Shown here: positions 22,391-44,089 of the stretch, in pieces | Numbering within the stretch: position 1 is the stretch's first letter | Layout: the number at the start of each line of letters is the position of its first letter | Source: Limnohabitans sp. | GTDB lineage: Bacteria; Pseudomonadota; Gammaproteobacteria; Burkholderiales; Burkholderiaceae_C | DNA length: 64,000 nt | Assembly (NCBI GenBank): GCA_030158125.1 | Contig: JAOATL010000012.1 | Location: 62,001-126,000 of the forward strand | Direction: 5' to 3' | Program-made: the position numbers and the translations under genes | The notes under the pieces: model-generated | Database searches by the model: none | Told to the model about the DNA's origin: nothing | Seen by the model: the letters and a program-made list of their open reading frames with translations, nothing else

Positions 22391-22900
22391 TCAAGCGCGC
22401 AAAGCTTTGCGGGCCAGAGCGATGCGCTCTTCCAAGTAAGCGCCATAAAAATCGGGTAAATAACCACCTTCCATGCGCTCAGCCACCTCTTGGCCTTTGG
22501 GGCCAAAAAAGATCAGTGTGGGGGCAATGCTGACGCGCCATTGCTTGACCAGCTGGTCATGCGTTTGAGGCTGGCCCTGCAGTCCGATCACTTGGCGATC
22601 ACTGCGCATGTCGACTTGCACAATGGGAAATCCTTGTTTTTGCATGGGGCTGAGGTAACTTTCTCTGGCCATTTTGCAAAAGGGGCAACCCGCTAAGCTG
22701 ACCATGACGATCAAAGGATCTTGGCTTCGCATGGCCATCTTCAGTTCGTTGGGCAATGACACCGCAGCAGGGAGTTGTGCGGGCGCGGCTGACGCTGATT
22801 GCGGCAGCCATGTGAAGCCACTGGCGACCGTTCCGGCCAGGCCTGTGAGCCATGTTCGGCGGTTGATGACCGTCTGCGGTGTGAGGGACTTGGGATGCAT
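22391..22900 (-). CDS. Thioredoxin-fold protein with exported N-terminus (SoxW-like)
   Basis: 169 aa. The N-terminus contains a twin-arginine-type signal (INRRTWLTGLAGTVASG) ending near SASA. The thioredoxin-like domain has C72-x2-C75 (GCPFCKMARESYL) and a cis-Pro region (APTLIFFGPKG). SoxW-type thioredoxins keep SoxY or other periplasmic thiols reduced, and this one may do the same; that is inferred from location. It is divergent from the first YeeE gene. No CcdA/SoxV partner is seen in the window. Confidence 0.8.
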   Translation of the reverse strand: MHPKSLTPQTVINRRTWLTGLAGTVASGFTWLPQSASAAPAQLPAAVSLPNELKMAMRSQDPLIVMVSLAGCPFCKMARESYLSPMQKQGFPIVQVDMRSDRQVIGLQGQPQTHDQLVKQWRVSIAPTLIFFGPKGQEVAERMEGGYLPDFYGAYLEERIALARKALRA

Positions 22901-23024
22901 GGCAAAGTTTAGGAAAAAAAAGGGACAATCAAAGGATTCGCACCGTCAAAACCCAGAGGACGCAAATTGTCCGCCTAGGCTTGGGGGAGATATATCAGTA
23001 TTGAATGAATTATTGGGGAACTTT

Positions 23025-24089
23025 GTGAATCTCGCAAGTCTGCTTGAAACTTATGGTGACCATTGGGTCCTTGCCTTTGGGGGCGGCCTCATTGGCCTGC
23101 TGTTTGGCTTCAGTGGGCAGCGTTCTAAATTTTGTGCACGCGCAGCGGTCATCGAGAGTTGCGAGGGTGAATGGCGTCAACGATTTGCCGGCTGGATGCT
23201 GGCTTTCGCAACAGCCATGCTGATGGTCCAAGCGGCCATAGCGCTGGGCTTTCTCAATCCTGCCAATTCGCGTCATTTGGGTTCACAAGGCAGCATCTCT
23301 GGCGCGATTTTGGGTGGCTTTATGTTTGGGGTTGGCATGATCATGTCGCGTGGATGCGCCAGCCGATTGATCATTCTGTCTGCCAACGGCAATTTGCGGG
23401 CCTGGATCTCCGGCTTGGTTTTTGCCGTCACAGTCCAGGCAACGCTTTCTGGTGCGTTGGCACCCGTGCGTCAAACCATGGCGTCTTGGTGGCTGGTGGA
23501 CGGCGGACCACAACGCAACCTCTTGACCCTCACAGGCACAGCTTCATGGATGGGCTTGGCGCTGGGCCTGGTGTTCTTGGGCATTGCCATTTGGCGCTTT
23601 AGAGTCACAGCGGGCGGCTCCAAACCGCTTATATGGGGCAATGTTTTTGTGGGTGCGGCCCTTGCTTTAGGTTGGTATTTCACGCAATGGATTGCCAGCG
23701 CTTCTTTTGAGCCTGTGCCCGTACAAGGTCTGTCGTTTAGCAGCCCATCTGCAGAATGGCTGAACCGTGTCCTTTATACCGACACTGCACCCAAGTTTGG
23801 GTTTGATGCGGGCTTATTGCCAGGCGTCTTTGTCGGCTCATTCTTAGCAGCCATTTTATTTGGTGATTTCAAATTTGAAGGTTTTCAAACCGAGAACAAA
23901 TTGGGGCATTACCTCAGCGGCGCTATTTTGATGGGCTTTGGTGCTGTGTTGGCGGGCGGCTGCACGGTGGGTGCCGGTATGTCGGGCGGCATTGTGTTTT
24001 CAAACACGGCTTGGCTCACCCTTTTGTCGATCATTGCCGGCGCTGCGATGACCTATAAATTCTTGAAGTCCATCGGCGCCCCCACCTGA
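23025..24089 (+). CDS. YeeE/YedE (TsuA/PmpA-like) sulfur-species transporter 1
   Basis: 354 aa from GTG (VNLASLLETYGDHWVLAFGG), preceded by GGGGA; this start aligns with that of the paralogue at 24195. About nine or ten hydrophobic segments. Conserved Cys motifs are SKFCARAAV, SRGCASRL and AGGCTVGAG. In TsuA these cysteines line the path for thiosulfate, and PmpAB homologues handle sulfur species under persulfide control. Both halves are in one chain, like TsuA. It is transcribed away from the thioredoxin-like gene. Substrate is inferred to be thiosulfate or (per)sulfide. Confidence 0.85.
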   Translation: MNLASLLETYGDHWVLAFGGGLIGLLFGFSGQRSKFCARAAVIESCEGEWRQRFAGWMLAFATAMLMVQAAIALGFLNPANSRHLGSQGSISGAILGGFMFGVGMIMSRGCASRLIILSANGNLRAWISGLVFAVTVQATLSGALAPVRQTMASWWLVDGGPQRNLLTLTGTASWMGLALGLVFLGIAIWRFRVTAGGSKPLIWGNVFVGAALALGWYFTQWIASASFEPVPVQGLSFSSPSAEWLNRVLYTDTAPKFGFDAGLLPGVFVGSFLAAILFGDFKFEGFQTENKLGHYLSGAILMGFGAVLAGGCTVGAGMSGGIVFSNTAWLTLLSIIAGAAMTYKFLKSIGAPT

Positions 24090-24157
24090 AATGGGGGCAG
24101 GGGTCAGCGCCCTGGTGTTGACGCAGGTCAAGTTGTTGGCGTTGACTGCTGGTAGCA

Positions 24158-24183
24158 TTCATATCAGTCCATGCTGATATGAA
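24158..24183. promoter_or_regulatory. Perfect 26-bp operator-like inverted repeat
   Basis: TTCATATCAG (24158-24167) and CTGATATGAA (24174-24183) are perfect 10-bp arms separated by TCCATG. The site is 11 bases upstream of the GTG of the second YeeE gene. Its core ATCAG-N6-CTGAT matches the dyads upstream of soxC and dsrE. An ArsR-family repressor is encoded at 28041-28385. Confidence 0.7.
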
Positions 24184-24194
24184 GAGGCCTGCCC

Positions 24195-25268
24195 GTGAGT
24201 GTTGAACTGAATGAACTTGTTGAAATTTATGGGGAAGGCGCCCTCCTGGCCTTCGGTGGCGCCATCATCGGTGTGTGTTTTGGTTTCTTCGCCCAGCGTT
24301 CTAAGTTTTGTTTGCGTGCGGCTGTCATCGATTTTTGGCACGGGCATTTCAAAGACAAACTTTCTATTTGGTTGCTGGCTTTTTCTGCGGCAGTCATTGG
24401 CACACAGGCCTTGGTTTTATGGGGCGGATTGGACAGCAGTGGGGCTCGGCAAATCGCTGCACGTGGCAGTTTGTCGGGTGCCATTGTCGGTGGCTTGCTG
24501 TTTGGCGTTGGCATGATTCTGACGCGCGGCTGTGCCAGTCGCTTGCTCATTCTTTCTGCCAACGGCAACTTGCGCGCCTTGCTCTCTGGGCTGATTTTTG
24601 CTGTGGTGGCGCAGTCGAGTTTGTCAGGCGCATTGATGCCTGCCCGTATTGCCATCAGTGAATGGTCAACGCTGGACGGCGGGCCAGGCCGCGATCTTTT
24701 GGCCATGGCTGGCACAGGCCATGTGACAGGATTGTCAATCGGTGTGTTGAGTTTGGCCGTGGCCATTTATTTTGTCAGTCGCAGCGCCAGCAAGCCCGCA
24801 ATGGTGTGGGTGGGCGGCCTTGGCACCGGTCTGTCTGTGGCTGCGGCATGGGGATTCACGCAATGGGTGGCCAGCAACTCGTTTGAACCCATTCAAATTC
24901 AGGGTTTGACCTTCAGTGGGCCTTCCGCTGAGTGGTTAATGCGCGTGTTGCAATCGCCTGCACCCAAAATTGGCTTTGAATTTGGCTTGTTGCCAGGTGT
25001 TTTCTTGGGGTCTTTTTTGGGCGCCATGGCAGGCAAAGAATTCAAGCTGGAAGGTTTCAAGGATGGTTACAGCATGCGCCGCTACATCGTGGGAGCGGTG
25101 CTCATGGGCTTTGGCTCGATGCTTGCCGGCGGTTGCGCCATTGGCGCTGGGGTGACGGGCGGCGCCATCTTTGCATTGACCGCGTGGGTCACTTTGCTGG
25201 GCATGTGGGTGGGCGCTGGTCTGACCGATCGTTGGCTGGACTCACCAGCCAACGTGCGCTTGCCTTAA
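24195..25268 (+). CDS. YeeE/YedE (TsuA/PmpA-like) sulfur-species transporter 2
   Basis: 357 aa from GTG (VSVELNELVEIYGEGALLAFGG). It is a full-length paralogue of the preceding gene and shares the motifs QRSKFCLRAAVI, TRGCASRLLILSANGNLRA and AGGCAIGAG. About nine or ten hydrophobic segments. It has its own operator-like inverted repeat in the 105-base spacer, so it can be controlled separately from the first copy. The gene ends four bases before the convergent cytochrome gene. Likely imports thiosulfate or a related reduced sulfur anion. Confidence 0.85.
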   Translation: MSVELNELVEIYGEGALLAFGGAIIGVCFGFFAQRSKFCLRAAVIDFWHGHFKDKLSIWLLAFSAAVIGTQALVLWGGLDSSGARQIAARGSLSGAIVGGLLFGVGMILTRGCASRLLILSANGNLRALLSGLIFAVVAQSSLSGALMPARIAISEWSTLDGGPGRDLLAMAGTGHVTGLSIGVLSLAVAIYFVSRSASKPAMVWVGGLGTGLSVAAAWGFTQWVASNSFEPIQIQGLTFSGPSAEWLMRVLQSPAPKIGFEFGLLPGVFLGSFLGAMAGKEFKLEGFKDGYSMRRYIVGAVLMGFGSMLAGGCAIGAGVTGGAIFALTAWVTLLGMWVGAGLTDRWLDSPANVRLP

Positions 25269-29987: not shown

Positions 29988-30647
29988 TTAAAACCAGTCG
30001 ATTTGCGGCCAACCTCTTTGGGCTGCTTCTGCCCGCAGTAGCGCATCGCCTTGGGTCACGGTGGCATGCGTGACGGCTTTCAGCAGCGGCAAGTCGTTGA
30101 TGGAGTCGCTGTAGCCCCATGTTTCAAGCTGCGCCCAATCGATTTGGCGCTCAGCACACCAAGCCATCAGACGACTCACTTTGCCCTCGCGCATGTTCAG
30201 CACGCCTTGCGTGCGCCCAGTGAACAGACCGTTTTGAACCTCGGCCTCGGTTGCAATCAATTCTGTCATGCCAAGATGTGCCGCCGTCAGTTCGGTGATG
30301 AAGCGATTGGTGGCGGTGGTCATTACCACACGGTCACCATTGGCCTGATGGGTTTTGATTTGGGCTTTACCGCCCGCACACAAGCGCGGCAGAATCCAGT
30401 CATTCAAAAACGCTTGCCGCAGGGGTTCCCATTCGCGCGGCGATTTCAGCGTGAGTGTGCCAATGTAGAACTCACAAAACGCCTGAACGTCCACGGCTCC
30501 AGATTTGTAGTCACGGGCCATGGCCTCGTTCTTGGCCGCGAAGATGGACTTGTCGAGCATGCCTTGCGCGATGAGAAAGTCACACCACAGCTGATCGCTG
30601 TCGCCATCCAGCAGGGTGTGATCGAGGTCAAACAGGGCCAGGCGCAT
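29988..30647 (-). CDS. HAD-IB family phosphatase
   Basis: 219 aa. HAD motif I is FDLDHTLLDGDSD with nucleophile D7 and D9; motif II TTATN and motif III/IV GYSDSINDLPLL. It resembles the SerB-like HAD-IB hydrolases, which dephosphorylate small phosphomonoesters. The start lies one base from the aldehyde dehydrogenase stop, so it is the last gene of the long phn operon. Physiological substrate is unknown; a phosphorylated amine or amino alcohol would fit the neighbours but this is a guess. Confidence 0.85.
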   Translation of the reverse strand: MRLALFDLDHTLLDGDSDQLWCDFLIAQGMLDKSIFAAKNEAMARDYKSGAVDVQAFCEFYIGTLTLKSPREWEPLRQAFLNDWILPRLCAGGKAQIKTHQANGDRVVMTTATNRFITELTAAHLGMTELIATEAEVQNGLFTGRTQGVLNMREGKVSRLMAWCAERQIDWAQLETWGYSDSINDLPLLKAVTHATVTQGDALLRAEAAQRGWPQIDWF

Positions 30648-30648
30648 G

Positions 30649-32034
30649 TCAGTTGCTGCGCAGGTGCCAAGCTTTGGGGCGTGTGAAGGTGGCCAAGCCT
30701 TCACGCGACAAGGTGAGGCCTACACCCGAGTGACCGTAGCCGCTCCATGGCAAACGTGGGCTGACGCGGTCGCAGCAGTTCCAATACACGGTGCCTGCAC
30801 GAACTTGTGACAGGACCTCGCGAGCGTGTTGTTCGTTGGGGGTGTAGACGCCAGCGGTTAAGCCATACTGTGTGTCGTTCATGAGGCGAACAGCTTCTGC
30901 ATCGTCGTTCACTTTTTGAATGCCAATGATGGGTCCAAAGCTTTCATCACGCATCAGGGCCATGCTGTGACTGACGTTGTCAAAGACGGTGGCTTCAAAC
31001 CAATTGCCTTTGCCACCCATGGGACCTTGGCTTCGTTGGCCTCCCAGCAGGCAACGCGCGCCTTTGGCTTTGGCATCTGCAATTTGTGCCTCTAGCACTT
31101 TAATTTGTGGGGCACGGGTGAGTGGGCCAAGGTAGGTGTCGGCGGCCAAAGGATCGCCCATTTTAAAAGTGCGAACCGTATCGACCAGGGCTTGTACGAA
31201 TTGATCGTGAATGCTGGCGTGCACATAGATTCGCTCGACAGAGCAGCAACTTTGCCCGGCGTTGTACATGGCACCATCGGCCAATGATTGCGCTGCAGCC
31301 ACAGGGTCGGCATCGGCGCACACATAAGTGGGATCTTTGCCGCCCAATTCCAATTGAAGCTTGGTCATGCGCGGGCCCATCACGTTGGCAATGTGCTGGC
31401 CGGTGGCCAAAGAACCTGTGAAGAACATGCCATCGAGTGGTTGTGCCAGCAAGGCATTGCCCGTGTCAGCCGCGCCGATCAAGGTGGCAAATACGTCTTC
31501 GGGGATGCCTGCTTCATGCAGCAAACGGCCCATGGCCAGGCCACTCATGGCAGCAAATTCGGAAGGCTTGTACAAAATGGCATTGCCCATGAGCAAGCCA
31601 GGTACAAACACGTTACCACCGACAAACCAGGGATAGTTCCATGCTGAAATGTTGCCAATCAAGCCCAGGGGGACGTGCTGAATTTGCTCGCACATGCCGT
31701 CTTGATTGAAAACCGTTTCTGTTTTGAGAATGCCTTCAGCTTCGGCCAAAAAGAAATCGACACGGCCTAAAAAACCATTCAGTTCATTGCGTGAGTGGCC
31801 CAGCGGTTTGCCAGTTTCTAGCGTCATGATCTTGGCCAAATCGTCCAGTTGCGCTTGAACCAAATCGCGAAAGCGTTGAAGACATGCCACGCGCTCGGAC
31901 AATGGCGTCGCGGCCCAAGCTGTCTGTGCATTGCGCGCTTTTTGCGCTTTAATGGCCACCGATGCGCCATCGTCGATGCGCAATTGGGTGATCAGTTCTT
32001 CGGTGGCGGGGTTGATGACGTCAAGCAGTTTCAT
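30649..32034 (-). CDS. NAD(P)-dependent aldehyde dehydrogenase
   Basis: 461 aa. ALDH superfamily with E229 (LELGGKDP) and catalytic C263 (NAGQSCCSVERIYV); Rossmann motif region FTGSLATGQHI. It lacks the N-terminal extension of many ALDHs. Placed after the amidotransferase-like hydrolase (45 bases) and before the HAD gene (1 base). In a glutamylation route it would oxidise a gamma-glutamyl amino aldehyde to the acid. It is distinct from the PhnY phosphonoacetaldehyde dehydrogenase at 42632. Substrate is inferred. Confidence 0.9.
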   Translation of the reverse strand: MKLLDVINPATEELITQLRIDDGASVAIKAQKARNAQTAWAATPLSERVACLQRFRDLVQAQLDDLAKIMTLETGKPLGHSRNELNGFLGRVDFFLAEAEGILKTETVFNQDGMCEQIQHVPLGLIGNISAWNYPWFVGGNVFVPGLLMGNAILYKPSEFAAMSGLAMGRLLHEAGIPEDVFATLIGAADTGNALLAQPLDGMFFTGSLATGQHIANVMGPRMTKLQLELGGKDPTYVCADADPVAAAQSLADGAMYNAGQSCCSVERIYVHASIHDQFVQALVDTVRTFKMGDPLAADTYLGPLTRAPQIKVLEAQIADAKAKGARCLLGGQRSQGPMGGKGNWFEATVFDNVSHSMALMRDESFGPIIGIQKVNDDAEAVRLMNDTQYGLTAGVYTPNEQHAREVLSQVRAGTVYWNCCDRVSPRLPWSGYGHSGVGLTLSREGLATFTRPKAWHLRSN

Positions 32035-32079
32035 AGGGGTCCAATGGGTTCAATGTCTGTGTTGGCCAATGCAGCTTGC

Positions 32080-32865
32080 TCACGCTGTCGGCTTGTGGCG
32101 GGCTGAATTCAAAAAATCGGTCAAGATAGGGCTGTCGTCTAAGGTGCCCAGTGCCGGCTTGTGAAATTCTGGATGCCACTGCACCGCAGCCACATAAGCT
32201 TTGCCTTGATGCCGAATGGCTTCCGGAATGCGGTCATGAGGGCAGTAGGCCTCCACCACAAAGTTAGGCGCCAGATCTTTCACACCTTGGTGGTGAATGC
32301 TGTTGACCTTGGCGGTTTTTGTGCCGCCTAGCAGTTGCGATAATTTGCTGTTGGGATCGAACGCAACGTCGTGCATGTTGAGGTCGTATTGCACGCCGTC
32401 ACGGTGCATCAAGGCTTCAGGCCTTTGAGTGGCAATGTCTTGGTACAAAGTGCCGCCAAACGCCACGTTGATCATTTGCATGCCACGGCACACGCCCAAC
32501 ACGGGTTTGCCCGCGGCCACAAAGGCTTCAATTAATTTCTTTTCATAGGCGTCGCGGACGCGGTCGCCTGTCCAGCGCGGGTCCATGACTTCTTCGCCGT
32601 AACTGCCTGGCCACACATCGCTGCCGCCCATCAGCACCACGCCATCTAGCCAGTCGGCGTAATCGGTAATCTGCGCATCGCCCACTTGCGTATCGCCTTC
32701 AGGCGACGGAATCATCACCGCCAAGTCGCCTTGCGACATGACCCAATGAGCCACTGATTGTTCAATGTACTGAAGCGTCTTTCCCTTGAAAATTGGCCGC
32801 TCATTGTCTGGGTGAAAAAAACAGGCTGAAATGCCAATTTTGAGACGTTTGGAATTAGACGACAT
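32080..32865 (-). CDS. Gamma-glutamyl amide hydrolase (PuuD/IpuF-like, class I amidotransferase fold)
   Basis: 261 aa from MSSNSKRLKIG. The peptidase C26 triad is visible: nucleophile C126 in GVCRGMQMIN, and H231 and E233 in VQWHPEF. PuuD-type enzymes split gamma-glutamyl amides such as gamma-Glu-GABA; IpuF does so in isopropylamine degradation. Here it would release the oxidised amine from glutamate. It is 18 bases downstream of the Fe-alcohol dehydrogenase and upstream of the aldehyde dehydrogenase. Confidence 0.88.
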   Translation of the reverse strand: MSSNSKRLKIGISACFFHPDNERPIFKGKTLQYIEQSVAHWVMSQGDLAVMIPSPEGDTQVGDAQITDYADWLDGVVLMGGSDVWPGSYGEEVMDPRWTGDRVRDAYEKKLIEAFVAAGKPVLGVCRGMQMINVAFGGTLYQDIATQRPEALMHRDGVQYDLNMHDVAFDPNSKLSQLLGGTKTAKVNSIHHQGVKDLAPNFVVEAYCPHDRIPEAIRHQGKAYVAAVQWHPEFHKPALGTLDDSPILTDFLNSARHKPTA

Positions 32866-32883
32866 GACTGCGCAAGCCTTCAA

Positions 32884-34017
32884 TTACATGGCAGCCGTGA
32901 ACAGCTTTTCAAAGTCTGCTGCAGTGCAAGGACGTGGGTTGGTTTGGTGGCAAATGTCGGCCGTGGCAATTTCGACCAAACGTGCCATGTGTTCGGGCTT
33001 CACGCCATGTGAAGTTAAGGTGCCCGTGATGCCGATGGAGGATTTCAATTCTTTCAGCCATGGCACGAAGGCACTGCCGCCACCTTTGACATTGCAGACA
33101 TGGGCCAATTCGGCGAACTTTTCTGGCACGGCTTCGTAGTTCCAAGCCATCACCACATCGATCATCAGTGCATTGGCCAAGCCGTGGTGCATGTCGACCA
33201 CCGCACCCAATGCATGTGCGCAAGAGTGCACGGCACCCAAATCTTTTTGGAACGCAATGGCGCCCATCATGGACGACATCATCATGTCGCTGCGGGCTTT
33301 GAGGTTGCCAGGCTGGTGGACTGCAGTGTGCAGCGCTGCTGCGCCAATGCGGGTGCCTTCCAAAGCGATGCCATCGCACAAGGGATGGTAGGCAGGTGAC
33401 AAGTAGCTTTCGATGTTGTGCGTCAGGGCGTCCATGCCAGTGGCTGCCGTGATCTTGCCGGGCAAACCTACAGTCAGCTCTGGATCGGCAAAGACGGTCT
33501 GTGCCAACAGTTTGGGATGGAAGATGACGCGTTTTTGGTGGGTGTCATCTTCACTGACCACGCTTGAACGGCCCACTTCGGAGCCAGTACCAGAGGTGGT
33601 GGGCAGTGCCACAAAGTAGGGCAGTGCACCAGATATGCTGCGAACCTTGGGGTGGTCCCATGCGTATTCCAAAATGGGACCGTCATGGGTGGCCGACAAG
33701 CCCACCACTTTGGCCACATCCAGTGAAGCACCACCGCCCAAACCAATGACGCAATCTGCCTTGTGGGCATTGAAAGCCTCGCCGCCAGCCGTCACTTGTG
33801 ACGCAGTGGGATTGCCATGCACACCTGCATACACGGCCACATCCAAGCCAGCCAAATGGCCAATGAATTCGGCCATCAACGGCAAATCAGCCATGGCTTT
33901 GTCGGTCACGATCAAAGGGCGCTTGTAACCTAAATCTTTTAAGTGTTGGCCGACCAACTTGCGGGCGCCCACGCCAAAGTGAATGGGGGTGGGGAATGAA
34001 AATTTATCAATGCTCAT
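32884..34017 (-). CDS. Iron-containing alcohol dehydrogenase
   Basis: 377 aa from MSIDKFSFPTPIHFGVGA. NAD site GLGGGASLDVAK at about 96-107. Metal and family motif HSCAHALGAVVDMHHGLANA at about 255-275 with the usual histidines. It belongs to the group III Fe-ADH family. Two readings of context: oxidation of a gamma-glutamyl amino alcohol, as IpuI may do, or reduction of phosphonoacetaldehyde as in phosphonate-associated Fe-ADHs. The flanking genes favour the first. It follows the GS-like gene by 30 bases. Confidence 0.88.
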   Translation of the reverse strand: MSIDKFSFPTPIHFGVGARKLVGQHLKDLGYKRPLIVTDKAMADLPLMAEFIGHLAGLDVAVYAGVHGNPTASQVTAGGEAFNAHKADCVIGLGGGASLDVAKVVGLSATHDGPILEYAWDHPKVRSISGALPYFVALPTTSGTGSEVGRSSVVSEDDTHQKRVIFHPKLLAQTVFADPELTVGLPGKITAATGMDALTHNIESYLSPAYHPLCDGIALEGTRIGAAALHTAVHQPGNLKARSDMMMSSMMGAIAFQKDLGAVHSCAHALGAVVDMHHGLANALMIDVVMAWNYEAVPEKFAELAHVCNVKGGGSAFVPWLKELKSSIGITGTLTSHGVKPEHMARLVEIATADICHQTNPRPCTAADFEKLFTAAM

Positions 34018-34047
34018 AAGGTGTCCAGTTCGATCTGAAAAATGCAA

Positions 34048-35421
34048 TTAGATGATTTCAAAATAGCGTTTGAGTTCCCAGTCTGTTACGCCATCCAACC
34101 ATTGACGCCATTCCCATTCACGGGTGGCGGCAAAGTGATCCACAAATGTATCGCCTAACCAATCGCGTGCCACTTTGGATTGTTGGAAATTGCGGGTGGT
34201 TTCGATCAGGGTGCGCGGTGCGCGGGGAATGTTCTCGGCGCCACCGTTGGTGCCATGAATGGCAGGGGCGGTGAGTTTCATGCCTTTTTCCACGCCATCC
34301 AAACCTGCGGCAATGACCGCGGCCATCGCCAAGTAGGGGTTGACGTCAGCGCCAGGGCAGCGTGTCTCAAGGCGGGTTGATTTGGGTGAGCCAGAAATCA
34401 CGCGGAAGCTGGCTGTGCGGTTGTCCACACCCCAGGTCGGCTTGACCGGTGCCCAGAAGCCATCCACCAAGCGTTTGTAACTGTTGATGGTGGGCCAGAA
34501 CATGGGGGCAAATTCCATCAAGTGCGCAACTTGGCCCGCCAAGTAACTTTCAAACACTTTGCTCATGCCATGACGGCCCTTGGCGTCGGCAAACAAATTC
34601 TTTTTGCCATCGCTCAGGCTTTGGTGAATGTGGCCACTGCAGCCAGGCAACGCGGCATTCCACTTGGCCATGAAGCTGGGCATGATGCCAAAGCGTGCGC
34701 CAATTTCTTTGGTGCCGGTTTTGAACAAGATGGCGCGGTCGGCTTGGGTCAGGGCATCGCTGAAAGCAATGGCCGCTTCGTAAACGCCGGGCCCAGTTTC
34801 GGTGTGCAGGCCTTCGATGGGCACGCCAAACTGCAGCATCTCGTCTTGAATGGCATTGAAGAACTCCCGGTTTTGGTTCATGCGCAGCAAAGAGTAACCA
34901 AACATGCCGGGCGTTAAGGGCGTAGGGTCCACGCCTTTTTTGTGCTGCCATGAATGCGAGTCTTCTAAGAAGTTAAACCATTCAAACTCCATGCCGCACA
35001 TGGGATTGACGCCCAATTTTTCGGCGCGTTTCAAGACTTTCTTCAGAGTTTGGCGTGGGCAAAGGGGATGGGGCGTGCCATCGCTGTTGACAAACTCGCC
35101 AATGAAGAAGGGCACATTGTTGTCCCATGGCACATTGCGCGCTGTGTTCAAGTCCAAGCGCGCCAAGGCATCAGGAAAGCCGTGTTGCCAACCTGTGAAG
35201 GTGGTGTTGTCATAACACTGGTCTGAAGAGTCCCAGCCAAAAACGACATCGCAAAAGCCAAAACCGCCTGCAGGGTAGGGTTCGGTTGCGCCTTTGAATT
35301 TGTCGATGTGCAAATACTTGCCGCGCAAAATACCGTCGATGTCGCTCACCGCCACTTTGACTTTTTGAGCGCCACTTTTTTCAACCGCTTTGAGTGCGGG
35401 GTGTAATTTCGAAGTGGCCAT
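34048..35421 (-). CDS. Glutamine-synthetase-like gamma-glutamylamide synthetase
   Basis: 457 aa. GS fold with N-terminal domain VSDIDGILRGKYLHI and catalytic motifs GMEFEWFNF, ETGPGVYE, GCSGHIHQSLSD, and SFRVISGSP. It lacks the NLYDLPP adenylylation loop of housekeeping GlnA. Such proteins (PuuA, IpuC, GlnA4) join glutamate to an amine in place of ammonia. Its place 44 bases after phnW and before an alcohol dehydrogenase, gamma-glutamyl hydrolase and aldehyde dehydrogenase suggests an amino alcohol or short amine as substrate. Specificity is not readable. Confidence 0.88.
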   Translation of the reverse strand: MATSKLHPALKAVEKSGAQKVKVAVSDIDGILRGKYLHIDKFKGATEPYPAGGFGFCDVVFGWDSSDQCYDNTTFTGWQHGFPDALARLDLNTARNVPWDNNVPFFIGEFVNSDGTPHPLCPRQTLKKVLKRAEKLGVNPMCGMEFEWFNFLEDSHSWQHKKGVDPTPLTPGMFGYSLLRMNQNREFFNAIQDEMLQFGVPIEGLHTETGPGVYEAAIAFSDALTQADRAILFKTGTKEIGARFGIMPSFMAKWNAALPGCSGHIHQSLSDGKKNLFADAKGRHGMSKVFESYLAGQVAHLMEFAPMFWPTINSYKRLVDGFWAPVKPTWGVDNRTASFRVISGSPKSTRLETRCPGADVNPYLAMAAVIAAGLDGVEKGMKLTAPAIHGTNGGAENIPRAPRTLIETTRNFQQSKVARDWLGDTFVDHFAATREWEWRQWLDGVTDWELKRYFEII

Positions 35422-35465
35422 GATCAGTCCTTTGTCAATTCACAAACTCAATGTGTTTCAGTCAT

Positions 35466-36581
35466 TCAGGCGGGCGCACCGCTGGCAATGCCCAACTCTT
35501 GCAGAGTGAGCGCGACGGCATGAACGGCTTGTTGCATCTCAATGGGGCCAATGGCGCCAATACAGCCCACACGGAATGTTTCAATTTCTGTGAGCTTGCC
35601 AGGGTACAAAATGAACCCATGTGTTTTGGCCGCTTCGTAGAATTTTCTAAATTCGTAGTTGGCGTCGGCGGGTGCATGGAAGGTCACGATGATGGGTGCT
35701 TGCACAGATGGATCGAGGTAGGGTTTGAAGCCCAGTGCAGCCATGCCATCGACCAAGGTTTTGCAATTGCTTTGGTAGCGTTTGAGGCGGGCCGGTTGAC
35801 CGCCTTCGTCTTCAAATTGCTGAATGGCCTCTGCCAAAGCCACCATGACGTGGGTGGGCGGGGTGAAGCGCCATTGACCTGTTTTTTCCATGTACACATA
35901 TTGGTCGTGCAGATCCATGGCCAGGGAAGTATTGTTGCCAGCGCAGCTGTCCAAAATGGCTTTTCGAATGAACACAAAGCCCATGCCGGGTACGCCTTCC
36001 AAACATTTGCCACTGGCGGCAATGAGGGCGTCAAAGCGGGTGGTGCGTGCATCGATTTCAAGCGCGGCAAATGAGCTCATGGCATCCACAATCAAGCCCT
36101 TGTGGTGCTTCTCGCAAACCTTGGCCACATCGTGCAGTGGGTTCAAAACCCCCGCGCCAGTTTCGCAGTGAATCAACACCACATGCGTGATGCTGGGATC
36201 CTTTGCCAGCAAGGCCTCAAGCTCAGAGGGGGAGACCGCTTTGTCTTCCGCGGTGGGCACCACCGTGGTTTTGCGGCCCATCATGGTGGAGAGTTTTGCG
36301 GCACGTTTGCAATATGCGCCATTGTCCAACACCAAGATGTGACCGCTGGGGGGCACCACCGTGGCGACAGCAGCTTCAACACTGAAAGTGCCGCTGCCCT
36401 GCAAAGGGACCACCACATGGGAGTCGTGGCCATGAACAATGTTCAGCAAGCTTTTGCGCACGCGCGCTGTGACGGCAATGAAATCGTTGTCCCAAGAACC
36501 CCAATCGCGCAGCATGGCCAGCTTGGTGCGCAAAGTGGTGGTGAGAGGGCCGGGTGTCAGAAGAATGGCTTCGCGTTGCAT
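35466..36581 (-). CDS. phnW: 2-Aminoethylphosphonate:pyruvate transaminase
   Basis: 371 aa. PLP enzyme that transfers the amino group of 2-aminoethylphosphonate (AEP) to pyruvate, giving phosphonoacetaldehyde and alanine. The N-terminus [11 protein letters not shown] is the aminotransferase V pattern; the PLP lysine is K192 in [12 protein letters not shown]; the Asp that pairs with the pyridine is D167 in LIVDAMSSF. Length is typical. It follows the fused permease gene by 52 bases, so uptake and the first catabolic step are co-transcribed. Product feeds PhnY at 42632 in the divergent operon. Confidence 0.95.
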
Positions 36582-36633: not shown

Positions 36634-38328
36634 TTAACGACCGCGCCAAGCTTGTGTGCGTTTGTCCACAAACCAACTCAGCCAAGCAAACAGCACGGTG
36701 GCTGCTGCCGAAATCAAACCAATCAGCACGGCCATGGCTGCGGCTGCGCCAATGTCGCCGGCCTCGTCCAAATTCAATATGGCAATGGACGCCACTTTGG
36801 TTTCAGGTGAGTACAAAAACACCACCGCAGAAATGGTGGTCATGGCATTGATGAAAAAGTAGCGTGCAATGTCCACCATGGCAGGGGTGCAAATGGGCAA
36901 GGTGACGCGCCAAAAGGTTTTGTAAAAAGGCACCTTGAGAGAGGCGCTGACGGACTCAAACTCTGCATCCAAAGATTTCAAAGCGGTGGTGGCAGTGAGG
37001 TGTCCAGTGGTGTAGAAGTGCACGATGGTGCAGAGCGTGAGCAAGGCCATGCTTTGGTACATGCCATGCAAAGGGTTGTTGGGCATGTTGAAGAAAAATA
37101 TGTAACCCAAGCCCAAGACCAAACCTGGCACGGCCATGGGAATCACCGCCAGCAATTGCAGGGGGGCGCGTACCACGTTCATGCCTTTGGTTTTTTCAAG
37201 CAAGTAGGCGGTGACGAATACCAACAAAGTGCCAAAGAAGGCCGTGCCGCTGGCCATTTCCAAACTGTTGATGAACCCTTCACCCACTTCGCCGTCGACC
37301 AATCCCAAGGTGTAATGACGCAAGCTGGGCGTGAGGTCGTAAGGCCAGAAACTGGCAAACGACGCAAACACGGCCATGCCCAACATGGCCAGCATGAGGC
37401 AGGCAATCAAAGTGCAATAAGCCATCATGAGGGTGTCATGCCGCGCATCAGGTTTGGGTTGGTAAGCCACGGCACGTGCACTCAGCATGGCCGTTTGTCG
37501 CGCACTCACATAGCGGTCAACTGCAAAGCTCAAAACAGCCGGCGACAGCAGCAACAGCGCCACCACCGAGCCTTTGGCGAAGTCTTGCTGGCCAATCACC
37601 AATTTGAAAATGTCGGTGGCCATCATGTTGAAATTGCCACCAATCACTTTGGGGATGCCAAAGTCGGTCATGACCAAGGTAAAGCTGACCAAAGAGGCGG
37701 ATATGAGACCGTACTTGGCCCCTGGCAAGGTGATGGTGAAGAACTTGCGTTGTGTGCTGGTGCCCAATGCATCTGCGGCTTCATACAAGCGCGCGTCAGC
37801 CAAGGTCAGTGCGGTGACCAAAATCATGAGCACGTGCGGGAAAGCCGCAAAACATTCCGCAACGACCACACCGGCGGGTCCATAAATCTGATCGATGCCG
37901 ACGGCTTGCATGGCATCTTTCAAAACCCCTTGGTTGCCAAACCAATAAATCAGTGAAATGGCCGATAACAGTGAGGGCGCCAAAAGCGGAATCAGACTGA
38001 TGGCTCTGAACAGTGATTTACCGGGCATGCAGCTGCGTGTGAGCGCATACGCAAAGACAAATGCCAGGGGCACCACAATGAAGGTGACCAACAAAGACAC
38101 CCACACGCTGTTCCACAAGCTGTGCAGCAAAGAGGGCGTTTGCATGTAGTTGAGGAAATTGCGAAGGCCCACAAAGTGGCCTTGATCGTCTTGCGCGGCT
38201 TGTTGCAAGATGGCCAACAGCGGTGCTGCCAAAAATGCCAGCAAGAGCATCAGAACAAGGGCCAGACCCACAAAGCCGACCCATTCGCTCCAATGGGTTT
38301 TTTGTTTCACTTGAAATGCAATCGTCAT
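36634..38328 (-). CDS. Fused 2-AEP ABC transporter permease (PhnU-PhnV type)
   Basis: 564 aa with about twelve hydrophobic segments in two repeated halves; each half ends with a cytoplasmic EAA-type loop (YEAADALGTSTQRKFFTITL in the first, FESVSASLKVPFYKTFWRVT in the second). This is the fused form found in Burkholderia/Ralstonia/Polaromonas 2-AEP clusters (PhnU2 type), in place of separate PhnU and PhnV. It starts 7 bases after the ATPase gene. Imports AEP across the inner membrane with PhnS and PhnT. Confidence 0.92.
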   Translation of the reverse strand: MTIAFQVKQKTHWSEWVGFVGLALVLMLLLAFLAAPLLAILQQAAQDDQGHFVGLRNFLNYMQTPSLLHSLWNSVWVSLLVTFIVVPLAFVFAYALTRSCMPGKSLFRAISLIPLLAPSLLSAISLIYWFGNQGVLKDAMQAVGIDQIYGPAGVVVAECFAAFPHVLMILVTALTLADARLYEAADALGTSTQRKFFTITLPGAKYGLISASLVSFTLVMTDFGIPKVIGGNFNMMATDIFKLVIGQQDFAKGSVVALLLLSPAVLSFAVDRYVSARQTAMLSARAVAYQPKPDARHDTLMMAYCTLIACLMLAMLGMAVFASFASFWPYDLTPSLRHYTLGLVDGEVGEGFINSLEMASGTAFFGTLLVFVTAYLLEKTKGMNVVRAPLQLLAVIPMAVPGLVLGLGYIFFFNMPNNPLHGMYQSMALLTLCTIVHFYTTGHLTATTALKSLDAEFESVSASLKVPFYKTFWRVTLPICTPAMVDIARYFFINAMTTISAVVFLYSPETKVASIAILNLDEAGDIGAAAAMAVLIGLISAAATVLFAWLSWFVDKRTQAWRGR

Positions 38329-38335
38329 GCCGGGT

Positions 38336-39406
38336 TCAGAACAGTTTGATGCGTTCTGGCATCAGTTTCAGGGGAAGCGTGGAGCCTGCTTGCAGGTTTT
38401 GCTCCGCTAAAAAGTTCAGAGACAAATACACAGTGAGAGGTTTCGCTGAGATGGCGGGGGCCATGACATGCACATGACAAAACGCGCCTAAAAAATCAAT
38501 CTCAAGAATGCTGGCCTGAAAGACGCAGGCATCACCGGCCAAGATGGGACGCGCCAACACATCTTCAGGACGCAAATACACTTTGATGTCACCTGTTTGA
38601 TGGTTCTTGGCGGGTATGTCAGCCAACGGAATGCGCATGTCGCCCAGTCTTAATTCTTGCGCAACAACAGTGCCTGGTAAGACGTTGACCTGGCCCACAA
38701 AGTCGGCAACAAAAGCGCTGGCTGGCTCTCTGTAGATTTCGGTGGGTGTGCCCACTTGTTCGATGCAGCCATGGTTCATGACCACGATGCGATCGGCCAT
38801 GCTCAGGGCCTCTTCTTGGTCGTGTGTCACCATGATCGTGGTGACGCCCAAGCTTTGTTGAAGTGATCGAATTTCGTCGCGCAGCCGAACACGCTCAAGG
38901 GCATCGAGGGCAGACAAAGGTTCGTCAAGCAGTAACAAGCCAGGTGAGGTTGCCAAGGCCCGCGCCAAGGCAATGCGCTGTTGTTGACCGCCCGAGAGTT
39001 GGCTTGGATATTTGGCGCCACTGCCTGGCAGGCCCACCAATTTCAATAATTCTTGGACGCGTTGTTGCACCACATCGCGCGCCACTTTGCGGTTGACCAA
39101 GCCATAGGCGACGTTGTCCGCAATGCTGAGGTTGGGAAACAGCGCGTAGCTTTGGAACACAATGCCGTAATCGCGTTCTGCTGGATGGGCCGAGGAGATG
39201 TCTTTGCCGGCTTGGTGAATCACGCCGCGTGTTTGCACTTCAAGACCCGCAATGATGCGCAGCAGGGTGGTTTTGCCGCAGCCAGAGGGACCTAAAAAAC
39301 AGACCAATTCACCGGGCACAATGTCCAAGTTGATGTCTTGAAGAGCCACAAAATTGCCAAAGGCTTTGTGCAGATGGGTAAGGGAGAGGTAGGGACTAGC
39401 AGACAT
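38336..39406 (-). CDS. phnT: 2-AEP ABC transporter ATP-binding protein
   Basis: 356 aa from MSASPYLSLTHLHKAFG. Walker A GPSGCGKTT, Q-loop, signature LSGGQQQRIALARA, Walker B LLLLDEPLSALDA and H-loop MVTHDQEEA. A C-terminal TOBE-type regulatory domain follows (about 240-356). Such ATPases belong to the Fe3+/putrescine/spermidine-type group of type I importers. Located between phnS and the fused permease; the downstream phnW makes 2-aminoethylphosphonate the likely substrate. An upstream ATG at 39436 is less likely because it lies close to phnS. Confidence 0.92.
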   Translation of the reverse strand: MSASPYLSLTHLHKAFGNFVALQDINLDIVPGELVCFLGPSGCGKTTLLRIIAGLEVQTRGVIHQAGKDISSAHPAERDYGIVFQSYALFPNLSIADNVAYGLVNRKVARDVVQQRVQELLKLVGLPGSGAKYPSQLSGGQQQRIALARALATSPGLLLLDEPLSALDALERVRLRDEIRSLQQSLGVTTIMVTHDQEEALSMADRIVVMNHGCIEQVGTPTEIYREPASAFVADFVGQVNVLPGTVVAQELRLGDMRIPLADIPAKNHQTGDIKVYLRPEDVLARPILAGDACVFQASILEIDFLGAFCHVHVMAPAISAKPLTVYLSLNFLAEQNLQAGSTLPLKLMPERIKLF

Positions 39407-39459
39407 GAGTGACCAACAAAAAGGCCGCCTTGGCAAGGCCAGGCGGCCGTTTGGTGAAA

Positions 39460-40491
39460 TTAACGCTTTTCAGATTTGCCGTTGTAGCGGGCGTTCCATT
39501 CAGTCAGGATGCGCTCACGTTGCTCTGCGGCATATTTGAAGTCCAACTTGACCAAGCGTGACTCGTAGTCTTTAGGCACGTTGGGCAGCGGTGCAGCCAC
39601 GCCAGGGTGTGCGGTGATGGCAAAGTTTTTGCCATACAGTTTCATCGCGTCTTTGCTAGAAGCCCAATCGGCCAATTTTTTGGCAGCATCCAATTTCTTG
39701 GTGCCTTTGTGGATGGCAAAGGATTCCAAATCCCAGCCCAAGCCTTCTTTGGGGAAGACCAAGTCAATGGGGGCGCCTTTGGCTTTGTTGGCGTTTGCAC
39801 GGTATTCGAAGGCAATGCCCACCACATACTCGCCGCTAGACGCCATGTTGCAAGGCTTGGAGCCAGAGTGGGTGTACTGGGCGATGTTTTCATGCAGGCC
39901 GTCCATGTATTTCCAGCCGCCGCCTTTGCCGTTTTGGTCACCAAACAAGGTGAGCCAAGCGATGACGTCAAAGTAGCCGGTGCCACTGGAGGCGGGGTTT
40001 GGCATCACGATTTGGCCTTTGTACACGGGCTTGGTGAGGTCTTTCCAAGTTTCAGGCTTGGGAATGTTGCGTTTTTTGGCTTCGATGGTGTTGAAGCAAA
40101 TGGTGGCACCCCAGACGTCCATGCCCCACCATGCCGGCACTTTGGCGGGGTCGCGGTATTGCGGCATGATGGCGTCTAAATTCAAAGGCGCATAGGGCTC
40201 GAGCATGCCGTTTTTGTTCATCAACTCAAGGCTGGTGGCGGCGACACCCATCACGGCGTCTGCTTGTGGGTTGGCTTTTTCGGCCAGCAACTTGGCGGTG
40301 ATCACGCCTGTAGAGTCGCGAACCCATTTGAGATCAATCTCGGGGTGAACCTTGTTGAAGCCTTCTTGGTAAGCCTTCAATTGGTCGACTTCCAACGCTG
40401 TGTAGACCAGCAGTTGGGTTTTTTGAGCCATGGCCATAGAGCCTAGCAACAGACCGCCCACCAGGAGGGCAGATTTGTAAAGTGCGCGCAT
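39460..40491 (-). CDS. phnS: 2-AEP-binding periplasmic protein
   Basis: 343 aa. Signal peptide MRALYKSALLVGGLLLGSMAMA, cleaved before QKTQLLVYTALEVD. The mature part is a type 2 periplasmic-binding protein of the Fe3+-binding (AfuA-like) fold seen for PhnS2. It delivers AEP to the fused permease. It is the first gene of the minus operon; a Pho-box-like repeat lies 46 bases upstream of its ATG and the PhnR operator further upstream. The sequence gives no direct proof of the ligand; the neighbours do. Confidence 0.92.
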   Translation of the reverse strand: MRALYKSALLVGGLLLGSMAMAQKTQLLVYTALEVDQLKAYQEGFNKVHPEIDLKWVRDSTGVITAKLLAEKANPQADAVMGVAATSLELMNKNGMLEPYAPLNLDAIMPQYRDPAKVPAWWGMDVWGATICFNTIEAKKRNIPKPETWKDLTKPVYKGQIVMPNPASSGTGYFDVIAWLTLFGDQNGKGGGWKYMDGLHENIAQYTHSGSKPCNMASSGEYVVGIAFEYRANANKAKGAPIDLVFPKEGLGWDLESFAIHKGTKKLDAAKKLADWASSKDAMKLYGKNFAITAHPGVAAPLPNVPKDYESRLVKLDFKYAAEQRERILTEWNARYNGKSEKR

Positions 40492-40648: not shown

Positions 40649-41383
40649 ATGTCGATCGAAACAGTACTACCCGTCGCACCGCTTTCAAGCGTCAGTGAGG
40701 CCAATGCCACCATCACCATGCTGCAAAACCACTCGCTCACGGGTGCTGTGCAGCAGGAGATAGAGCGGCTCATCAACGAGGGTGAGTTGGGCCCCGGCGA
40801 CAAGCTGACAGAAGCATCTTTGGCCGAGAGGCTAGGCGTTTCCAGGGGGCCTGTGCGCGAAGCGTTTCGCGTTTTAGAAGAAGTGGGCTTGGTGCAGCTG
40901 GAAAAAAACAGAGGCGTCTATGTGCGGCAAATTCCACTGGAAGAGGCGCTCGAAATATTTGACCTGCGCGCCATGATTGAGGCGCATGTGGGCAGCACCT
41001 TGGCCGCGAATGCGTCGGAGGCACAATTGACATACCTGCGCCAGTTGGTCACGCAAATGGAACATGCAGTCAAGGTTGAAGATGAAGCCACGTACTACCG
41101 TTTGAATGTTGAATTCCATGAGTCCATGGTGTCGTATGCAGGCAATAAAAAACTCATCGGAATGTATCGAAAGCTGACGCGGGAGTTGAGTTTGTTCCGT
41201 CGTCGGAATTTTTCCGACCACGCCTTGTTGGTCACCTCGGTCAACGAGCACCGTGACATCTTGGATGCCATTGGTTCTCGAAATGCGGCCAAAGCCGCAG
41301 AGGCGCTGCGTCAGCACGTGCTCATGAGTCGTGAGCGAACCATTCGAAATTACGTTAAATATTCAGCGCGCACAGCGCCTTAA
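40649..41383 (+). CDS. phnR: GntR/FCD-family regulator of phosphonate utilisation
   Basis: 244 aa. N-terminal winged helix (about 30-95: EIERLINEGELGPGDKLTEASLAERLGVSRGPVREAF, given here only by its ends) and C-terminal FCD ligand domain (about 105-230) with metal-type histidines. This is the regulator conserved in phosphonate clusters that carry PhnA and PhnW. It is first in the plus operon, 12 bases before phnA, and has a perfect palindromic site just upstream, so autoregulation and control of phnS are likely. The inducer is presumably an AEP-derived metabolite. Confidence 0.9.
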   Translation: MSIETVLPVAPLSSVSEANATITMLQNHSLTGAVQQEIERLINEGELGPGDKLTEASLAERLGVSRGPVREAFRVLEEVGLVQLEKNRGVYVRQIPLEEALEIFDLRAMIEAHVGSTLAANASEAQLTYLRQLVTQMEHAVKVEDEATYYRLNVEFHESMVSYAGNKKLIGMYRKLTRELSLFRRRNFSDHALLVTSVNEHRDILDAIGSRNAAKAAEALRQHVLMSRERTIRNYVKYSARTAP

Positions 41384-42613
<1,230 letters not shown>

Positions 42614-42631
42614 ATTTTGAAGGTGACCGTC

Positions 42632-44089
42632 ATGAGTCAAGTTGCACAATTCATCAAAGACCATCAACTCGATGCCATGCGCATCGGTGGCAAAAAATTG
42701 GGCGCAGGTCGCGACCGTTTCATTGAAGTGTTCAATCCGTTCACAGAACAGCGTCTAGGCACCGTGCCCAAAGCGACATTGGAAGAGGTACGCGAAGCCT
42801 ATGCAATGGCACATGCCTACAAACCGAAATTGTCTCGCTTTGAACGCGCCGCCATTTTGAACAAAGCAGCTGCTTTGGTGCGAGACCATCTAGACGACAT
42901 TGCGCAGTTGATTTCTGCAGAAGCTGGTTTGTGTTTGAAAGATGCGGTGTATGAAGCTGGCCGTGTCAGTGATGTGCTTTTGTTTGGTGCGCAAGAAGTT
43001 CTGAAAGACGATGGTCAAATTTTCAGTTGTGACTTAACGCACCATGGCAAGCAACGCCGGGTTTACACGCAGCGCGCGCCATTGTTGGGCGTGATCACGG
43101 CCATCACGCCATTTAACCATCCGATGAACCAAGTGGCCCACAAGGTGATACCCAGTGTGGCCACCAACAACCGCATGGTGCTCAAACCTTCAGAGAAGGT
43201 GCCGTACTCGGCCATTTATTTTGCAGACCTGCTGTACGAAGCTGGCTTGCCGCCTGAAATGCTGAGTGTCATCACGGGTGACCCGCGAGAAATTGCCGAT
43301 GAAATGTTGACGCATCCGGCGGTTGATTTGATCACTTTCACGGGCGGTGTGGCCATTGGCAAGTACATCGCTGACAAAGCCGGCTATCGCCGCATAGTGT
43401 TGGAATTGGGCGGTAATGATCCGCTCATCGTCATGGAAGATGCCGACCTAGAGGAAGCGTCCAATTTGGCAGTTCAAGGCTCTTACAAAAATTCGGGGCA
43501 GCGTTGCACGGCTGTCAAACGCATGCTGGTGCACCAAGCGGTGGCCAAAGACTTTACCGACTTGGTGGTGCAAAAGACCAAGGCCTGGTCGTATGGCAAT
43601 CCTGCTGACAAAGACAATTTGATGGGCACCGTGATTGACGAAGCTGCCGCCAAGTTCTTTGAATCCCGCGTCAACGATGCCATTGCCAACGGCGCTCGCT
43701 TGCTGGTGGGCAATCAGCGACACGGTGCTTTGTATGCACCAACGGTGGTTGACCAAGTGCGGCCGGAGATGCTGTTGGTCAAAGAAGAAACCTTCGGTCC
43801 CGTATCGCCCATCATTCAGTTCAGCAACATTGATGAAGCCATTCAAATCGCCAATGGCACGGTGTACGGTTTGTCCAGTGGTGTGTGTACCAATCGCATG
43901 GATTACATCGTGCGATTTGTGAATGAGTTGCAAATGGGCAGCGTCAATGTGCGTGAAGTACCTGGCTACCGTTTAGAGCTCACACCTTTTGGTGGCATCA
44001 AAGACTCGGGCCTGGGCTACAAAGAAGGCGTGCAAGAGGCCATGAAGAGCTTTACCAACATCAAAACTTATTCAATGCCTTGGGCTTAA
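42632..44089 (+). CDS. phnY: Phosphonoacetaldehyde dehydrogenase
   Basis: 485 aa from MSQVAQFIKDHQLDAM. NAD-dependent ALDH that oxidises phosphonoacetaldehyde to phosphonoacetate. Catalytic E258 (VLELGGND) and C292 (NSGQRCTAVKR) are present, as is the FTGGVAIGK cofactor turn. The start chosen is the ATG at 42632; a TTG five codons upstream is less likely. It lies between phnA and the Na/Pi-cotransporter-like gene and links PhnW to PhnA. Confidence 0.94.
   Translation: MSQVAQFIKDHQLDAMRIGGKKLGAGRDRFIEVFNPFTEQRLGTVPKATLEEVREAYAMAHAYKPKLSRFERAAILNKAAALVRDHLDDIAQLISAEAGLCLKDAVYEAGRVSDVLLFGAQEVLKDDGQIFSCDLTHHGKQRRVYTQRAPLLGVITAITPFNHPMNQVAHKVIPSVATNNRMVLKPSEKVPYSAIYFADLLYEAGLPPEMLSVITGDPREIADEMLTHPAVDLITFTGGVAIGKYIADKAGYRRIVLELGGNDPLIVMEDADLEEASNLAVQGSYKNSGQRCTAVKRMLVHQAVAKDFTDLVVQKTKAWSYGNPADKDNLMGTVIDEAAAKFFESRVNDAIANGARLLVGNQRHGALYAPTVVDQVRPEMLLVKEETFGPVSPIIQFSNIDEAIQIANGTVYGLSSGVCTNRMDYIVRFVNELQMGSVNVREVPGYRLELTPFGGIKDSGLGYKEGVQEAMKSFTNIKTYSMPWA

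Follow-up and report, generated by a model that had tools for sequence, protein, structure and literature searches.

Gene organization of the locus

The window analysed here is a stretch of 64,000 nucleotides from a Limnohabitans sp. genome (3.06 Mb in 24 contigs), and all coordinates refer to this whole stretch. It holds a gene cluster for the transport and degradation of 2-aminoethylphosphonate (AEP) in which phnW is followed by four genes, here called the cassette, that are predicted to encode a gamma-glutamylation pathway. Comparison with related genomes indicated that the locus is very probably a two-branch operon for two common aminoethyl head groups, AEP and ethanolamine.

On the minus strand the gene order is substrate-binding protein, ATPase, fused permease, PhnW, glutamine synthetase (GS)-like ligase, Fe-dependent alcohol dehydrogenase (Fe-ADH), C26 hydrolase, aldehyde dehydrogenase (ALDH) and HAD-IB phosphatase (Table 1). 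With ATG starts, the gaps from the permease gene to the HAD gene are 52, 44, 30, 18, 45 and 1 bases. A preliminary description of the sequence had given this gene set and order on one strand, with gaps of 1-52 bases, and both were confirmed from the open reading frames (ORFs) and from Pfam and curated models. The genes for PhnR, PhnA and PhnY lie divergently on the plus strand. No terminator-like site was found on the coding strand in the gaps between the permease and HAD genes, and a weak stem of 5 pairs (39439-39427) spans the start listed for the ATPase gene. Regional totals of promoter-like sites (6, with 5.4 expected) and terminator-like sites (14, with 17.9 expected) did not exceed chance.

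The transporter has a fused permease and belongs to the PhnS2/T2/U2 type rather than the Salmonella PhnS-T-U-V type. PhnW, PhnY and PhnA all scored above their curated cut-offs. The AEP branch is therefore complete, and the four cassette enzymes are extra to it.

Table 1. Genes of the AEP cluster and of its surroundings in the window, with model scores in bits.
Product	Position	Strand	Evidence
Substrate-binding protein PhnS2	39460-40491	-	TIGR03261 480.6 (cut-off 392.8)
ABC ATPase PhnT2	38336-39436	-	TIGR03265 492.1 (cut-off 457.7)
Fused ABC permease PhnU2	36634-38328	-	TIGR03262 790.6 (cut-off 593.3)
PhnW, AEP-pyruvate transaminase	35466-36581	-	NF010006 564.8 (cut-off 296)
GS-like ligase, proposed gamma-glutamylethanolamide synthetase	34048-35421	-	Pfam Gln-synt_C 309
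Fe-ADH, proposed gamma-glutamylethanolamide dehydrogenase	32884-34017, ATG (listed from TTG 34047)	-	Fe-ADH N- and C-terminal Pfam domains
C26 hydrolase, proposed gamma-glutamylglycine amidohydrolase	32080-32865, ATG (listed from TTG 32883)	-	Peptidase_C26 184
ALDH, proposed gamma-glutamyl-aminoacetaldehyde dehydrogenase	30649-32034	-	Aldedh 437; ELGG and GQSC motifs
HAD-IB phosphatase, tentatively proposed as phosphoethanolamine phosphatase	29988-30647, ATG (listed from GTG 30704)	-	HolPasePseu 225.9 (below cut-off 280)
GntR-family regulator PhnR, divergent	40649-41383	+	TIGR03338 272.1 (cut-off 271.5)
PhnA, phosphonoacetate hydrolase	41396-42613	+	TIGR02335 580.1 (cut-off 407.6)
PhnY, phosphonoacetaldehyde dehydrogenase	42617-44089	+	TIGR03250 841.9 (cut-off 635.7)
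Na/Pi cotransporter with PhoU domain	44093-45748	+	
EamA-type membrane protein	46338-47174	+	TIGR03340 (phosphonate-associated) 238.4 (below cut-off 288.15)
FAD oxidoreductase fused to a GcvT-like folate domain (805 residues)	47193-49610	+	Reading of the sequence
Two tandem ORFs, similar YeeE/YedE-like membrane proteins	22674-25268	+	Read by eye

Enzymes of the cassette

The GS-like ligase lacks the NLYDL motif, the adenylylation site of GS, and together with the Pfam match this bears out its description as a synthetase without the adenylylation loop. The nearest solved chains by sequence were 11zs and, second best, 5dm3, a Chromohalobacter enzyme. Three Limnohabitans metagenome-assembled genomes were among the nearest named records (96-99% identity of the ligase). 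In a wider tree of the GS family long branches met, and nothing was drawn from its deep order. The Fe-ADH carries a DALTH motif, and its best NCBIfam match was 4-hydroxybutyrate dehydrogenase (339.3 bits, below the cut-off of 500). The catalytic residues noted earlier for the C26 hydrolase were read in the sequence as GVCRG and QWHPE. The ALDH was also considered as a PhnY and rejected, scoring 213.6 with the PhnY model; the true PhnY is the one listed in Table 1.

Conservation of the cassette and its linkage to phnW

A ligase match (E 1e-120) was found in 67 of 399 genomes of the family, at no less than 76% identity in 63 of them and at 48-49% in the other four; within the genus, 11 of 60 genomes had it. 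For gene neighborhoods, 80 loci (the best by ligase likeness, not a random sample) were merged with the family loci to give 128 distinct loci after removal of duplicates, leaving out six (L178-L183; L numbers are our handles for loci) without a ligase of the same clade.

The adjacency pointed out in the preliminary description proved to be conserved. Of the 102 loci with at least 3 kb of upstream sequence, 73 encode PhnW no more than 9.5 kb upstream of the ligase, and in 57 it is directly adjacent. Among the 97 loci with at least 6 kb downstream, the ADH was present in 94, the C26 hydrolase in 88, the ALDH in 90, all three in 86, and the HAD protein in 55. The family sample alone (61 loci, four partial ones left out) gave PhnW upstream in 41 of 55. 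At the genome level, PhnW was found in 45 of the 63 ligase genomes and in 29 of the 336 others (Fisher p ~2e-25, kinship ignored). Because the arrangement is conserved across genera and families, chance grouping of the cassette with phn genes is excluded. On the ligase tree, where stars mark 24 of 72 inner branches, PhnW changes state nine times, with gains and losses indistinguishable.

Several loci depart from the common arrangement. The cassette is convergent to the phn operon in L278. On a Rhizobium leguminosarum plasmid (NZ_CP016289.1; L233:12312-23044) the order is PhnW, a Cys/Met-type pyridoxal phosphate enzyme, a fatty-acid-desaturase-like protein, C26, LysE, a GMC oxidoreductase in place of the Fe-ADH, the GS-like ligase and ALDH, with transposases around; the desaturase-like gene is odd there. 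A GNAT acetyltransferase gene lies between ligase and ADH in L025 (11355-11876) and other loci, and 19 of the 75 loci with both flanks complete have one near the ligase. In L071 (11305-12732), L044 and L079 the same place is taken by an M20 peptidase related to glutamate carboxypeptidases, which might act as a second hydrolase of gamma-glutamylglycine. L034, L060, L072 and L081 have two different C26 hydrolases in tandem within the cassette. L119 (identical to locus L025), L124 and L131 are phn operons that hold the cassette and have a PbfA gene next to the regulator gene; HAD is absent there, and the stretch read contains neither PhnA nor PhnY.

Ethanolamine genes around the cassette

PhnW was missing from 23 of the 75 complete loci. 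In some of these (L037 and L045) an ethanolamine permease (EutP) gene stands directly upstream of the ligase, with a divergent gene for a EutR-like AraC regulator, and in others (L028, L031 and L054) EutB and EutC are encoded behind the ALDH; in most of the 23, neither ethanolamine permease nor EutBC was seen. The permease beside the ligase scored 371.8 bits, just below the ethanolamine-permease cut-off of 381.75, and the AraC protein 132.7 with a cut-off of 319. EutB (742, cut-off 554) and EutC (334, cut-off 230) behind the cassette were above theirs. Polaromonas-type loci (L039, L055, L056 and L140) hold the transporter, PhnW, permease, cassette and HAD in a single cluster; L056 comes from the cultured strain Polaromonas sp. 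JS666. Six permease matches of at least 81% identity were obtained in the 63 ligase genomes, all directly upstream of the ligase, with four more at 35-38%. Among more distant ligases from the taxonomic class, a permease likewise lies directly upstream in L216, L227 and L228, three of the 20 class loci read.

No ethanolamine transporter, a common companion of the pathway though not one of its enzymes, was recognised in the operon itself. The genome of the window had no match to EutB or EutP at E 1e-60, TRAP-type EtoX not having been searched for in it.

If the phn-linked enzymes acted on AEP and the permease-linked ones on ethanolamine, residue differences between them would be expected. Proteins with stops or of fewer than 200 residues were left out of this comparison, and loci with both PhnW and EutP or EutBC were placed in neither set. 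No fixed difference between the EutP/EutBC-linked and phn-linked proteins was found in the ligase (7 and 79 proteins), the ADH (7 and 66) or the ALDH (5 and 59).

Exchange of the cassette for EutBC

EutBC is B12-dependent and yields acetaldehyde and ammonia, and is unrelated to the enzymes of the cassette. Of the 29 family genomes with PhnW and without the ligase, 28 loci were read, some of them short at contig ends. In L236, L237 and L238, EutB and EutC (both above their cut-offs) are encoded exactly between phnW and the HAD gene; in L240-L242 both genes are found on the far side of the regulator gene. One genus (g12) has both states, with EutBC (L237/L238) or the cassette (L168/L169) in the slot between phnW and HAD. 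Three of the four possible pairs were compared, and in these the backbone was orthologous (PhnS 92-93%, PhnW 79-81% and HAD 54-57% identity).

EutB was searched for in 44 of the 63 ligase genomes and in 23 of the 29 genomes with PhnW and without the ligase. It was found in none of 38 genomes with both PhnW and ligase, in 3 of 6 with ligase only and in 18 of 23 with PhnW only (Fisher p ~3e-11 among PhnW genomes, kinship ignored). Among the PhnW genomes tested, these two unrelated ethanolamine modules are mutually exclusive, and they are exchanged at one position. The presence of EutBC in the same spot suggests that the operon uses both head groups, AEP and ethanolamine.

The substrate of the cassette is most likely ethanolamine, because EutP or EutBC stands beside some PhnW-free cassettes, the slot is swapped, EutB and ligase exclude each other among the PhnW genomes tested, and the ligase, ADH and ALDH show no fixed differences. 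The preliminary description had assigned AEP to PhnW and ethanolamine or another amino alcohol to glutamylation, with glycine and glutamate as products, and this division, with ethanolamine as the amine, is well supported by the comparative genomics.

The HAD phosphatase

The HAD protein carries the motifs DLDHT and DSIND and is related to histidinol phosphatases. It is unlikely to be the histidinol phosphatase of the genome, because another histidinol-phosphatase-like gene (contig C10) reached 279 bits with the same model, itself one bit below the cut-off. The two proteins are 39% identical. Membership of the glutamylation cassette was rejected too: HAD also occurs in phn operons that lack the cassette, and it was therefore assigned to the phn genes or to the supply of ethanolamine.

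Around the ligase, HAD was present in 38 of 46 loci with the transporter and in 3 of 29 without it (merged set of 75 loci); the family sample gave 22 of 29 and 3 of 14. A further comparison took in 67 phn operons (52 from the family and 15 from the order) for which PhnW, two or more transporter genes and 7 kb of downstream sequence were present, L236 being left out for its short end. HAD was found in 26 of the 38 that had an ethanolamine module no farther than 10.5 kb away and in 2 of the 29 without (Fisher test, kinship ignored). It usually stands behind the module that fills the slot; L274, from another family, has it between phnW and the ligase. This enrichment suggests phosphoethanolamine as the entry substrate, and a function as phosphoethanolamine phosphatase is plausible. 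The earlier idea that HAD removes phosphate first thus gains indirect support from these counts and none from the phylogeny-corrected tests against transporter and PhnW, which are given below.

Proposed pathway

In the first branch, whose enzymes are named by curated models, PhnS2T2U2 would import AEP, and PhnW, PhnY and PhnA would convert it to phosphonoacetaldehyde, phosphonoacetate and finally acetate and phosphate. In the second branch, whose substrate is deduced from gene context, the GS-like ligase would couple ethanolamine to the gamma-carboxyl of glutamate, using ATP. The Fe-ADH would oxidise the glutamylated alcohol to the aldehyde, the ALDH would convert this to gamma-glutamylglycine, and the C26 hydrolase would release glycine and glutamate. 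Glutamylation would mask the amine, and the amino-aldehyde could then not react with it.

HAD may free ethanolamine from phosphoethanolamine, a near-isostere of AEP, which the same transporter might admit. Import of phosphoethanolamine by the AEP transporter is a bold extension of the model. In the full scheme one transporter would serve AEP and phosphoethanolamine, HAD-IB would release ethanolamine intracellularly, and the cassette or EutBC, as exchangeable modules, would mineralise it; this tentative proposal has less than an even chance of being right.

Alternative explanations

Several observations weigh against the two-branch reading. PhnW was not encoded within 9.5 kb upstream of the ligase in 29 of the 102 usable loci, and 18 of the 63 ligase genomes had no PhnW at E 1e-100; the link of the cassette to AEP is therefore optional. 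A promoter-like match (36626-36597), not above chance, lies in the gap before phnW. The ADH and ALDH stayed below the cut-off of every model listed (for the ALDH, the best 25 of 43 matches). Two alignment columns of the C26 hydrolase had fixed differences between the EutP/EutBC-linked (5) and the phn-linked (57) proteins, and these vanished with all 24 PhnW-free proteins. As to HAD, it was missing from 12 of the 38 module-bearing phn operons, and was found without an ethanolamine module in L239 and L246. The L246 protein may not be of the operon type, since its 39% identity to the HAD of the window is no nearer than that of the histidinol-phosphatase-like paralogue. Independent-pairs tests on the ligase tree gave no significant association of HAD with the transporter or with PhnW (median p 0.125-0.375).

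These HAD distributions would fit the view that the two branches are mere neighbours, with ethanolamine entering by diffusion or its own transporter, HAD doing another job, and one promoter grouping two modules. Such an explanation is compatible with two branches and denies the HAD and import step. It is also favored by L011, L013 and L016, which have PhnW and the cassette but no transporter or HAD in the stretch read, and by some Polaromonas-type loci that keep EutP beside the cassette inside the phn cluster. The enrichment of HAD with ethanolamine modules, usually behind whichever one occupies the slot, and the lack of a EutP match in the window's genome argue against it. We regard it as quite possible, at somewhat less than an even chance.

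The other alternatives concern the substrate. Glutamylation of AEP or N-methyl-AEP, as a new route parallel to PhnW, had been raised in the preliminary description. Co-location with AEP transport and PhnW is all that speaks for it, and AEP has no alcohol on which the Fe-ADH could act, PhnW-PhnY-PhnA is complete, and closely similar enzymes stand beside ethanolamine permeases or EutBC elsewhere, without PhnW. This route is very improbable, and was rejected on the swap of EutBC into the cassette's slot and the lack of fixed residue differences in ligase, ADH and ALDH. 1-Hydroxy-2-aminoethylphosphonate, itself an amino alcohol, could be glutamylated and oxidised to an acylphosphonate with loss of phosphite, and some cassette loci have PbfA or phosphonate-HD genes nearby. 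No aldehyde would then be left for the ALDH, and the route would be redundant, since the three PbfA-bearing loci described above also hold the full cassette. The linkage to EutP and EutBC indicates ethanolamine instead, and we give this compound next to no chance. Another small amino alcohol, or a range of them (alaninol, 1-amino-2-propanol, N-methylethanolamine), is unlikely. Related GS-like ligases do use other amines (IpuC is annotated as gamma-glutamylisopropylamide synthetase), and the low scores of the ADH and ALDH would agree with such a substrate, but the recurrent partners of the cassette (EutP, the EutR-like AraC regulator and EutBC) are those of ethanolamine.

Comparison with known systems

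Gamma-glutamylation of ethanolamine has been published as a reaction series in Phaeobacter sp. MED193, with the ethanolamine coming from phospholipid head groups (PMC10132767). The operon described there resembles the cassette in having an ethanolamine gamma-glutamylase, a gamma-glutamylethanolamide dehydrogenase, an ALDH and a gamma-glutamylglycine amidohydrolase, the likeness being one of description. It differs in its TRAP transporter EtoX for ethanolamine and in PhoX, which removes phosphate outside the cell, whereas the Limnohabitans genes lie inside an AEP operon with PhnS2T2U2, PhnW and a HAD phosphatase. For Streptomyces the first step has been published; GlnA4 of S. coelicolor is likewise a GS-like gamma-glutamylethanolamide synthetase, and the same reaction series was proposed (PMC6529630). 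Its cluster has a short-chain dehydrogenase where Limnohabitans has the Fe-ADH, and the word "phosphonate" is absent from the paper. Both papers point to Chromohalobacter.

AEP clusters are known to take up accessory enzymes, PbfA and FAD enzymes among them (PMC8154272, PMC10590968), and the accessible text of these two papers names no glutamylation module. All three enzymes of the hydrolytic PhnW-PhnY-PhnA pathway, which PbfA widens in such clusters, are present here. PbfA supplies phosphonoacetaldehyde (PMC8154272), whereas the Limnohabitans cassette would take a phosphorus-free compound and end in glycine.

The isopropylamine (Ipu) and putrescine (Puu) pathways had been named as models; they are not the nearest known ones, the published ethanolamine pathway running through the same reactions as proposed for the cassette. 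By annotation, the Ipu pathway has a GS-like ligase, dehydrogenases and a glutamine-amidotransferase-type hydrolase. The two IpuC proteins listed were 38-40% identical to the ligase of the window (39.7% for that of Paenarthrobacter aurescens TC1), compared with 44-46% for the ten best plasmid ligases. The Ipu cluster also has a P450, a ferredoxin and a ferredoxin reductase, none of which occurs in the Limnohabitans operon, and no monooxygenase for a glutamylated amine was seen among the ORFs of the operon. The Limnohabitans proteins did not reach the cut-offs of the PuuA (171.6, cut-off 650) and PuuD (93.4, cut-off 266) models, and the FAD oxidase PuuB is absent from the operon.

No publication coupling ethanolamine catabolism or glutamylation with AEP or phnW was found in a search that left most subscription papers outside. 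The glutamylation pathway is already known, and its coupling with AEP catabolism is apparently new. In phosphono- and phospholipids, the common aminoethyl head groups are AEP and phosphoethanolamine. If the proposal holds, a single entry system feeding two branches would link the use of phosphonates with that of phosphoesters in Burkholderiales of freshwater and soil, and the operon would serve aminoethyl head groups in general, drawing phosphorus from C-P as well as C-O-P compounds. The number of AEP transporters counted in a metagenome would then not report AEP use alone, and an orphan HAD enzyme would gain a candidate substrate. The exchange of EutBC and the cassette is a natural experiment that points to a likely function for GS-like genes whose present annotation is glutamine synthetase.

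Other genes in the region

The Na/Pi cotransporter gene lies 3' of phnY and is followed by the EamA-type gene. In seven PhnW-free loci (L059, L075, L077, L155, L156, L167 and L172) an EamA gene, a Na/Pi gene or both occur within 3.6 kb upstream of the ligase, and these proteins could therefore possibly serve ethanolamine or phosphate handling. The FAD-GcvT-like protein encoded close to the phn genes is of the dimethylglycine or sarcosine dehydrogenase type, and glycine made by the cassette could meet its one-carbon metabolism. Elsewhere in the window, the two tandem YeeE/YedE-like ORFs are followed on the opposite strand by cytochrome-like and flavocytochrome-like ORFs.

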